From: an uncultured Methylophilaceae bacterium
Lineage (GTDB): Bacteria; Pseudomonadota; Gammaproteobacteria; Burkholderiales; Methylophilaceae
Reading direction: 5' to 3'
Assembly: GCA_903909015.1 (NCBI GenBank)
Contig: CAIVUE010000090.1
Coordinates: forward strand, 1 to 35,007
Length of the DNA stretch: 35,007 nt
A model generated the notes under the pieces. It had not been told where the DNA came from, made no database searches, and saw nothing but the letters and a program-made list of their open reading frames with translations. Shown in pieces: positions 22,114 through 26,300 of this stretch. A program made the translations under genes and the position numbers. Every line of letters starts with the position of its first letter. The first letter of the stretch is position 1.

Positions 22114-23772
<1,659 letters not shown>

Positions 23773-23800
23773 TCATGGCTAATCAATAGCACACCGTTAA

Positions 23801-23837
23801 AAACAAAAAAGCCCCGAATGGGGCTTTTTTGTTTTTT
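23801..23837. terminator. Intrinsic terminator after groEL (bidirectional shape)
   Basis: AAACAAAAAAGCCCC-GAAT-GGGGCTTTTTTGTTTTTT. Confidence 0.92.
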
Positions 23838-23839
23838 GT

Positions 23840-23872
23840 AAAAAACCCTCGGCTAATAAGATTGGCCGAGGG
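23840..23872 (-). terminator. Rho-independent terminator on minus strand (3' end of candidate sRNA)
   Basis: CCCTCGGC (23846-23853) / GCCGAGGG (23865-23872) 8-bp stem; on the minus strand immediately followed by TTTTTT (23845-23840). There is no T tract on the plus side. Confidence 0.78.
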
Positions 23873-23957
23873 AAAGCCTAAGTTAGGCTCCACACCAAGG
23901 GAGGAAGGTGTGGGATAGTGACTTGATACTTATCAGATCATCAACATCACCATCGTA
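23840..23957 (-). ncRNA. Candidate small RNA with anti-Shine-Dalgarno loop (prediction; 5' end approximate)
   Basis: Minus strand ...TATCCCACACC-TTCCTCCCTT-GGTGTGGAGCCTAACTTAGGCTTTCCCTCGGCCAATCTTATTAGCCGAGGGTTTTTT. 7-bp hairpin CCACACC/GGTGTGG with loop UUCCUCCCUU, small hairpin GCCTA/TAGGC, then terminator CCCTCGGC/GCCGAGGG followed by T6. No ORF in the track covers it. Confidence 0.55.
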
Positions 23958-23961
23958 AAGA

Positions 23962-23991
23962 TTACGACTAAAAATACTTTAGATAAGTTCC
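23962..23991 (-). promoter_or_regulatory. Candidate ECF/sigmaE-like promoter for the candidate sRNA
   Basis: Minus strand GGAACTT (23991-23985), N16, GTCGTAA (23968-23962); resembles the sigmaE consensus GGAACTT-N15-17-GTC-rich -10. Confidence 0.35.
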
Positions 23992-24092
23992 AGACTTATC
24001 ACTAAAAAATAGATCCCTTTTCTGAGCGATCATCAGTGTTTAATCTTACTTAAATATTTCTCGAAGAGACAGGGAACTGCGATAATCTCACC

Positions 24093-26300
24093 ATGACAAT
24101 ATCAAATGAATCTCAAGACATACTCCTCAGAGGACTTAACAATAAGCAATTAGAAGCAGTTACTTTGCCTCATCAGTCCGCATTAATTTTAGCTGGCGCA
24201 GGAAGCGGTAAAACACGTGTGCTTACAACAAGAATTGCTTGGCTGATTCAAACAGGACAGGTTTCACCTACTGGACTATTAGCCGTAACATTTACTAACA
24301 AAGCAGCTAAAGAGATGCTAACGCGGCTTACCGCGATGTTACCGATTAATACCCGCGGGATGTGGGTAGGCACTTTTCATGGTCTTTGTAATCGTTTATT
24401 AAGAGCACATCATCGCGAAGCTTTGTTGCCTGTCACTTTCCAGATTTTAGATACTGCAGACCAACTATCAGCGATTAAACGCCTGATGAAACTGATGAAT
24501 GTTGATGATGAAAAATTTCCACCAAAACAAGTGATGGGGTACATCAATAGCTGCAAAGAGGAAGGTTTGCGCGCTCATACCGTAGATGCTTATGACCCAC
24601 ATTCACAGCGAATGCGTGAGATTTTTGAAGAATATGACAAACAATGCCAACGTGAAGGCGTGGTAGATTTTGCAGAATTGTTATTGCGTTGCTACGAGCT
24701 TTTAATCCGAGACAGCAACATTCGTCAACATTACCAAGACCGATTTAAATATATCCTAGTCGATGAGTTCCAAGACACCAATAAATTGCAATACTTGTGG
24801 CTAAAACTATTTGCAGGGATCAATCAGGAAAAGCCTAATAACTGCATTTTTGCAGTGGGTGATGACGACCAATCCATCTATGCTTTCCGCGGCGCTCGCG
24901 TGGGTAATATGCGTGACTTTGAAATGGATTTCAAAGTACAAAACATCGTCAAACTTGAAGAAAACTACCGCTCACACAGCAACATTTTGGATGCAGCAAA
25001 TGCGATTATCAGCAATAACAAGAACCGCCTAGGTAAAAATTTATGGACGGTTGCGGGCATGGGAGAGCCTGTAAGGGTTTATCAAGCATATAACGACATA
25101 GACGAAGCTAGCTTTATTGTTGAAGAAGTAAAAATGCTTCATAACGACGGTTGGGCACTAAATGATATCGCCCTTCTCTACCGCTCTAATGCACAATCAC
25201 GCGTAATTGAGCATGCTTTATTTTCAAACAATATTCCTTATCGTGTTTATGGTGGGCTACGCTTTTTTGAACGCGCAGAAATCAAACATGCGATGGCCTA
25301 TTTGCGCCTGATTAACAATCCCGAAGATGATATCGCTTTATTACGAGTTATTAATTTCCCTACCCGCGGCATCGGTGCAAGAAGTTTAGAACAACTACAA
25401 GAATCAGCCAGAATGCAAGACTGCAGCCTATGGCAGGCCGCTATCAACAAAGTTGGGAATGGTCGCCCAGGAAAAGGCTTAGAAGGCTTCGTGGCATTAA
25501 TCAAGCAAATGCAAGACGATGCTAAAGGCTTAACCCTAACTGAGATGACTGAAATTGCAACGACCATGTCTGGTCTCAAGAATTTTTATCAGTTAGAAAA
25601 AGAAGGCGAAGACCGCATTTCCAACTTAGATGAACTTATTAACGCTGCCGTCAGTTTTATGAATAATAATGAGGACGCCCTTCAAGATAATAGTAACGGA
25701 CTCACGGAATTTTTAACTCATGCCAGCCTTGAAGCAGGCGAACATCAAGCAGATGTAGGTGCAGATGCCCTTCAACTCATGACAGTGCACGCTGCCAAGG
25801 GCCTGGAATTCAAAGCAGTATTTATCAGCGGCCTAGAAGAGGGTTTGTGTCCCCACGAAAATAGCTTGTATGAAAACAATGGCTTAGAAGAAGAGCGTCG
25901 CTTGATGTACGTTGCAGTAACACGTGCTAGGCAACGTCTATACCTAAGTCACGCCCAAAGCCGTATGTTACATGGACAAATTCGCTATGGTATTCCATCA
26001 CGTTTCTTGGATGAAATTCCTGACGAGTTACTAAAACGCATAAACAGCCGCCAAGCACAAAAACCAAGCATGTCGAACAGCAATGAAATCAACCGCCAAA
26101 ACTTGCAACCCTCAATTAGCAGCGAACAAAGATCTGCCATGCCTTGGAAAATTGGCCAAGCTGTATCACACGCCAAATTTGGGCAAGGAATAGTAGTGAG
26201 TTACGAAGGAAATACAAGCGATATGAGAATCCAAATCAACTTTGGACGTGAAGGTCTGAAATGGCTCGCTATGGAATATGCAAAACTAGAAAAGATCTAA
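24093..26300 (+). CDS. uvrD: UvrD/Rep family DNA helicase II
   Basis: LLRGLNNKQLEAVTLPHQSALILAGAGSGKTRVLTTRIAWLI...LAVTFTNKAAKEMLTRL...GTFHGLCNRLLR...ILVDEFQDTNKLQY...FAVGDDDQSIYAFRGA...LEENYRSHSNIL...LMTVHAAKGLEFKAVFISGLEEGLCPHE...EEERRLMYVAVTRARQRLYLSHA. Confidence 0.97.
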   Translation: MTISNESQDILLRGLNNKQLEAVTLPHQSALILAGAGSGKTRVLTTRIAWLIQTGQVSPTGLLAVTFTNKAAKEMLTRLTAMLPINTRGMWVGTFHGLCNRLLRAHHREALLPVTFQILDTADQLSAIKRLMKLMNVDDEKFPPKQVMGYINSCKEEGLRAHTVDAYDPHSQRMREIFEEYDKQCQREGVVDFAELLLRCYELLIRDSNIRQHYQDRFKYILVDEFQDTNKLQYLWLKLFAGINQEKPNNCIFAVGDDDQSIYAFRGARVGNMRDFEMDFKVQNIVKLEENYRSHSNILDAANAIISNNKNRLGKNLWTVAGMGEPVRVYQAYNDIDEASFIVEEVKMLHNDGWALNDIALLYRSNAQSRVIEHALFSNNIPYRVYGGLRFFERAEIKHAMAYLRLINNPEDDIALLRVINFPTRGIGARSLEQLQESARMQDCSLWQAAINKVGNGRPGKGLEGFVALIKQMQDDAKGLTLTEMTEIATTMSGLKNFYQLEKEGEDRISNLDELINAAVSFMNNNEDALQDNSNGLTEFLTHASLEAGEHQADVGADALQLMTVHAAKGLEFKAVFISGLEEGLCPHENSLYENNGLEEERRLMYVAVTRARQRLYLSHAQSRMLHGQIRYGIPSRFLDEIPDELLKRINSRQAQKPSMSNSNEINRQNLQPSISSEQRSAMPWKIGQAVSHAKFGQGIVVSYEGNTSDMRIQINFGREGLKWLAMEYAKLEKI

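Follow-up and report, generated by a model that had tools for sequence, protein, structure and literature searches.

What does the minus strand encode in the gap that separates groEL from uvrD in this Methylophilaceae genome, and what would the product act upon? In the window (the whole stretch of 35,007 nucleotides that was analysed), the initial annotation had pointed to a candidate small RNA (sRNA) with an anti-Shine-Dalgarno (anti-SD) hairpin loop. The interval almost certainly encodes a real sRNA gene, judging by comparison with related genomes. The reading favoured here, at a probability of about 70%, is that the product is a sigma-E-driven translational repressor that feeds back on rpoE.

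Structure of the RNA Gene

Three stem-loops can be read directly from the minus strand: CCACACC-TTCCTCCCTT-GGTGTGG (23913-23890), GCCTA-act-TAGGC (23888-23876), and CCCTCGGC-N11-GCCGAGGG (23872-23846), the last followed by TTTTTT at 23845-23840. All of these lie, to the base, where they had been placed before. It was also correctly seen that only the minus orientation has the shape of a terminator, since the T tract is absent past these stems on the plus strand. With four hairpins, the fold of the segment 23956-23840 (-) reaches -49.4 kcal/mol, compared with -26.6 +/- 2.95 kcal/mol for its dinucleotide shuffles (z -7.7; 0 of 200 equally stable). The three hairpins named earlier are among the four, while the one at the 5' end (about 23954-23914) had been overlooked. 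The features of the locus are as follows.

22129..23772, plus strand: groEL, the convergent neighbour, outside the sRNA (list of open reading frames; most Methylophilaceae loci are alike)
23840..23956, minus strand: predicted sRNA transcript of about 117 nt with four hairpins, an apparent divergent orthologue of RF02837 anti-hemB (fold z score, Rfam match, orthologues in the genus)
23914..23954, minus strand: 5' hairpin, genus-specific (folds of the window and of L040, L042 and L043; upstream sequences)
23890..23913, minus strand: anti-SD hairpin with the loop UUCCUCCCUU (covarying stem, invariant CCTCCCT)
23875..23889, minus strand: small hairpin AGCCUA-acu-UAGGCU (direct reading and fold; homologues carry an altered sequence)
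23840..23872, minus strand: intrinsic terminator, stem 23872-23846 and T6 (direct reading, alignment, fold)
23985..23991, minus strand: putative -35 element GGAACTT of sigma-E (RpoE/ECF) type (at a constant distance in nearly all homologues)
23962..23968, minus strand: putative -10 element GTCGTAA of sigma-E type (motif comparison)
24093..26300, plus strand: uvrD, the divergent neighbour, which shares the intergenic region (list of open reading frames)

The core of the anti-SD loop, CCUCCCU, occupies 23904-23898 (-) and is exposed in the second hairpin. A second CU-rich loop, UCCCCUU, sits in the terminator of most aligned relatives, where it is not a formal RF02837 criterion; direct reading and alignment show that it has been lost from the window, whose terminator loop is CAAUCUUAUUA / CAATCTTATTA. 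In the upstream sequences of other Methylophilaceae, a shorter hairpin of the AGACG/CGTCT type replaces the genus-specific 5' hairpin.

The 5' end of the transcript (23953-23933, minus strand) reads ATG GTG ATG TTG ATG ATC TGA, and ATGGTGATGTTG with a nearby in-frame TGA is also found in L040-L043. A near-leaderless open reading frame of 6-7 codons is possible at this end; the same bases build the 5' hairpin.

Conservation and Family Assignment

In an alignment of 52 related sequences, 97% of the cells form pairs, and double-sided changes (CG to AU, UA and so on) occur in 12 of the 13 pairs. The pairs scored were those of the first and last stem; the middle hairpin, which is of variable length, was left out. 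The covariation score is 0.255, as against 0.091 for shuffles and 0.02-0.05 with slid partners, so that, as measured here, the structure is conserved far beyond chance. All six scored pairs in the stem of the anti-SD hairpin covary, and the CCTCCCT columns are invariant in all 52 sequences. The initial annotation had called for compensatory changes in relatives, and both main stems display them around a loop that never varies.

At Rfam's own cut-offs, a tRNA is the sole match in the window. When an E-value threshold is applied, the best match is RF02837 (anti-hemB), which aligns over the full model (1-81 of 81) with 38.2 bits and an E-value of 1.3e-7, below the gathering score of 49.5 bits that defines membership. 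Six genomes of the same genus reach 52-59 bits, and four of these six, with the locus fetched, have the gene at the same uvrD-groEL site. Because copies from the same genus pass the cut-off and share this site, the window copy is, through these intermediates, best classed as a divergent orthologue of RF02837 that the formal score alone would leave out. The elements of the window copy follow one another as in RF02837 (anti-SD hairpin, then small hairpin, then terminator), and the UCCUCCCU loop is present as well. Two associated traits are absent, namely the UCCCCUU terminator loop and adjacency to hemB, the latter being only implied by the family name.

Of 120 Methylophilaceae genomes, 74 have an RF02837 match above the cut-off; for the order as a whole the figure is 165 of 250. 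A plain DNA search of Methylophilaceae recovered genus-level relatives only, at 70-90% identity, and the covariance model was therefore needed for wider homologues. Outside Burkholderiales, the count at E <=0.001 is 92 of 184, a figure that overstates the family. In Pseudomonas and Stutzerimonas (L113-L115), for example, false matches with E-values of 1e-5 to 1e-8 fall on a conserved hairpin that resembles a terminator. Since such matches in Pseudomonas lie away from polA, sub-threshold matches need synteny, and outside Burkholderiales only those with a CCUCCC loop and synteny were relied on.

Weak matches in two streamlined genera were rejected, being unrelated hairpins away from uvrD. In one streamlined genus of the family (L306-L308, L310), a conserved but unrelated hairpin-terminator that is not near uvrD matches RF02837 weakly (E ~0.001-0.08) and is perhaps a leader element. 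Some Gammaproteobacteria have 2-4 tandem matches, several of them at engB/polA (L104, L083, L105, L091; G513, G493, G491, G451), an arrangement reminiscent of redundant sRNA copies.

The neighbours of the gene, identified by tblastn and Pfam, differ between groups. In Methylophilaceae, uvrD adjoins the sRNA in all 36 loci inspected, the window included, and groEL is on the other side in most. In other Burkholderiales, hemB flanks the sRNA to one side; across from it there is a convergent engB and then a cytochrome c gene. Most other Gammaproteobacteria have polA on one side, and again engB and then the cytochrome c gene on the other. The polA-engB location is thus that of the RF02837-type sRNAs of other Gammaproteobacteria, not of the window copy. 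Homology, covariation, the invariant loop and conserved position together lend strong support to the earlier proposal of a free-standing regulatory RNA (here ~117 nt) with an exposed anti-SD loop. At the level of sequence, the RNA, its structure, its invariant loop, its terminator, a promoter motif and synteny are shown to be conserved.

A Probable Sigma-E-Type Promoter

The region upstream of the sRNA contains GGAACTT and GTC separated by a 16-nt spacer (23991-23985 and 23968-23966), a 10/10 match to GGAACTT-N15/16-GTC, the known sigma-E consensus. From the usual sigma-E spacing, the transcription start is predicted at about 23956. The upstream regions of homologues have GGAACTT or TGAACTT, then 15-16 nt, then a GTC-type element, mostly 45-56 nt upstream of the sRNA core. 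A motif scoring at least 9/10 is present in 21 of 30 Methylophilaceae, 12 of 29 other Burkholderiales and 20 of 29 other Gammaproteobacteria, compared with 0.8-1.3% of dinucleotide-shuffled upstream regions. A scan of 23700-24200 found no sigma-70-like promoter.

A member of the sigma-E regulon should have a promoter of this type upstream and RpoE encoded in the same genome. Both are found here, RpoE scoring above the curated cut-off. A motif of this type also stands upstream of rpoE in this genome and, in two sets of Methylophilaceae leaders, in 9 of 10 and in 19 of 20. Since nearly all Methylophilaceae have rpoE, its co-occurrence with the sRNA carries no information. Assignment of the promoter to the sigma-E type is likely on motif and position, and transcription of the sRNA is probably RpoE-dependent. 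With a promoter of RpoE type, the RNA should be made under cell-envelope stress.

rpoE as a Candidate Target

The exposed loop would pair with G-rich ribosome-binding sites, and that of rpoE is a candidate. GGGAG or GGGGA is present at the rpoE ribosome-binding site in 21 of 31 Methylophilaceae genomes; in two background samples, of 304 and 279 genes, the share is 2.3% and 5.7%. Among the other Burkholderiales, 8 of 29 rpoE sites contain UCAGGGA, which is exactly complementary to the loop sequence UCCCUGA, versus 1.4% of the background. The P values assume that related genomes are independent. Ahead of rpoE in this genome stands AGGGAGG, which is perfectly complementary to the first loop over its 7 nt.

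Pairing of the rpoE site with the first loop in the window species is predicted at -12.9 kcal/mol, a value equalled by 3.5% of only 57 background genes. In G020, the rpoE site pairs instead with the terminator loop, at -13.5 kcal/mol; 0.3% of genes equal this for that loop and 1.5% for either loop. The window species has no UCCCCUU terminator loop, and its rpoE site matches the first loop instead. In G001, pairing with rpoE is no outlier among genes. An anti-SD loop fits any G-rich ribosome-binding site, so the complementarity to rpoE is partly generic.

Genera in which the sRNA was not detected provide a comparison. In two such genera, GGG is kept in 1 of 12 rpoE sites, versus 28 of 31 in the other genomes sampled from the family (Fisher 7e-7, with related genomes treated as independent); these two genera are somewhat richer in A+T. 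The rpoE sites of other Gammaproteobacteria have no clear pattern. When six genomes of the genus were searched for exact matches to GGGAGGA-N3-11-ATG, few genes came up, and no second target recurred. Porin genes were located as well. With these data, the case for rpoE as a direct target of the sRNA is evenly balanced, and negative feedback on rpoE is a moderately supported prediction.

In many Methylophilaceae, RpoE seems to be lengthened at its N terminus by a conserved stretch of several dozen residues (L160-L169, L216-L235). This stretch is in frame before the usual start, with the G-rich ribosome-binding site ahead of it.

Proposed Mechanism and Alternative Explanations

According to the model proposed here, the minus strand would carry a gene for a trans-acting sRNA transcribed from an RpoE-type promoter. 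The RNA would fold into four tight hairpins that leave CCUCCCU as the main exposed stretch. This loop would pair with G-rich ribosome-binding sites such as GGGAGG and UCAGGGA and exclude ribosomes from selected mRNAs, probably with the participation of Hfq, as judged from the homologue ncS04 of Burkholderia cenocepacia. A negative feedback would result: RpoE would drive synthesis of the sRNA, which in turn would dampen rpoE translation. Sigma-E control, rpoE pairing and repression are what we infer from the motifs and complementarities described above; that the RNA is a translational repressor acting through the CCUCCCU loop is probable. What goes beyond the initial annotation is the promoter of sigma-E type, the link with the polA-engB locus and rpoE as a candidate target.

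Other explanations of the locus can be weighed against this model. The nearby end of groEL needs a terminator, and GC-rich hairpins with T tracts give weak RF02837 matches too, as in Pseudomonas; it might thus be suspected that the hairpins arose by chance or form an ordinary array of terminators without function as RNA. However, the terminator of groEL is a separate hairpin at 23810-23830, while the covariation and invariant loop extend across many families and the fold z score is far from that of shuffles. On these comparative data, the chance reading may be regarded as already refuted. It is very improbable that the RNA acts in cis as an antisense transcript, which the name anti-hemB would imply, or is a uvrD leader. 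The gene adjoins hemB in most Burkholderiales and uvrD here, but the RNA is intergenic, divergent from either gene and equipped with its own terminator, and it stays while the neighbour varies by group (hemB, polA, uvrD).

The toxic betaproteobacterial family RF02278 consists of double-hairpin RNAs and was described in B. cenocepacia (PMC5688073); membership would make the RNA a growth inhibitor. The two families have in common CU-rich unpaired stretches complementary to ribosome-binding sites, and the window RNA is like RF02278 in its CU-rich anti-SD loop and terminator hairpin. Homology is unsupported, since RF02278 scores 15.1 bits (E 1.5) against a cut-off of 50, whereas the same bases give 38.2 bits with RF02837, and B. 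cenocepacia has separate genes for both families. The chance that the window RNA belongs to RF02278 is therefore very slim, and the question of family, which the initial annotation had left undecided, is answered in favour of orthology to RF02837. An RF02837-type anti-SD sRNA might also be constitutive, damping translation in general through many weak targets, its promoter motif incidental and rpoE not special. This would suit a generic anti-SD loop, the inconspicuous rpoE of G001, and the behaviour of ncS04 in B. cenocepacia, which did not change significantly in seven conditions, none of them a direct envelope stress (PMC5688073). It is less easily reconciled with a GGAACTT-N15/16-GTC motif at constant distance in three broad groups, far above shuffles, with the lack of a sigma-70-like site in 23700-24200, or with rpoE sites strongly unlike those of background genes. 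A constitutive damper is thus unlikely, although it is the strongest of the alternatives to the sigma-E-driven repressor.

Comparison with Known Systems

The closest described relative is ncS04/anti-hemB of B. cenocepacia J2315, a 105-nt RNA found by dRNA-seq, with its 3' end mapped by RACE. It is located between BCAL0264 and BCAL0265 and was co-purified with Hfq (PMC5688073, PMC4603805). Like RF02837 (Burkholderia RNA 7; ncS04), the window copy has an anti-SD hairpin, a small GCC hairpin and a terminator in this order over the full model, and it is a free-standing intergenic gene with a CCUCCCU loop. Unlike RF02837, it scores under the cut-off, has a CCACACC stem and a genus-specific 5' hairpin, lacks the UCCCCUU terminator loop and lies at groEL-uvrD, not hemB-engB.

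RF02837 was formerly a Burkholderia RNA of unknown function. It now ranks among the most widely conserved sRNAs of Burkholderiales, and it acquires a regulator (RpoE) and a target (rpoE), both predicted, as well as a plausible shared-locus link to ErsA and sX13. In the open literature (subscription papers being outside the scope), no paper was found that ties anti-hemB to RpoE, ErsA or sX13. The sigma-E promoter motif, the group-specific loci and the rpoE-site complementarity are new. If the feedback is true, translational feedback would join anti-sigma-factor control in the betaproteobacterial envelope-stress response.

A functional parallel would be found in the enterobacterial sRNAs MicA and RybB, which depend on sigma-E and act as repressors of mRNAs. 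A Salmonella study deals with sigma-E-dependent sRNAs and the decay of omp mRNAs (PMC1804206). The likeness drawn here is one of function, and the predicted feedback is on rpoE itself.

ErsA of Pseudomonas aeruginosa sits in the polA-engB interval (PMC8575079), the same position that the RF02837-type sRNAs of other Gammaproteobacteria hold. In four of five Pseudomonas-group genomes, a sample that does not include P. aeruginosa, this interval has a GAACTTT-N-GTC-like motif, then C-rich stretches or loops, and a terminator. In the remaining one, a Pseudomonas MAG (L128, G548), the ErsA-like promoter and hairpins are missing 3' of polA, and engB was not found in the fetched stretch, unlike in the four related genomes. 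RF02837 does not detect the polA-engB RNA in the Pseudomonas-group genomes examined, and the loops of that RNA are rich in CCCC, unlike the CCUCCCU of RF02837. Shared descent is therefore suggested by place, promoter and C-rich loops.

The sX13 RNA of Xanthomonas is encoded downstream of polA, has C-rich loops and represses mRNAs that carry G-rich motifs close to their start codons (PMC3771888). The gammaproteobacterial homologues at polA-engB have three C-rich loops; sX13 is reported to be restricted to Xanthomonadaceae and Hfq-independent, and the likeness drawn here is one of description. We would give even odds to one origin of anti-hemB with ErsA and sX13. More tentatively, all three may be a single ancient sRNA gene, shared by Beta- and Gammaproteobacteria and driven by RpoE, that arose at polA-engB and uses its C-rich loops to repress G-rich ribosome-binding sites. 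In Burkholderiales, Methylophilaceae among them, this gene might exert direct negative feedback on rpoE, with loop and ribosome-binding site changing together.
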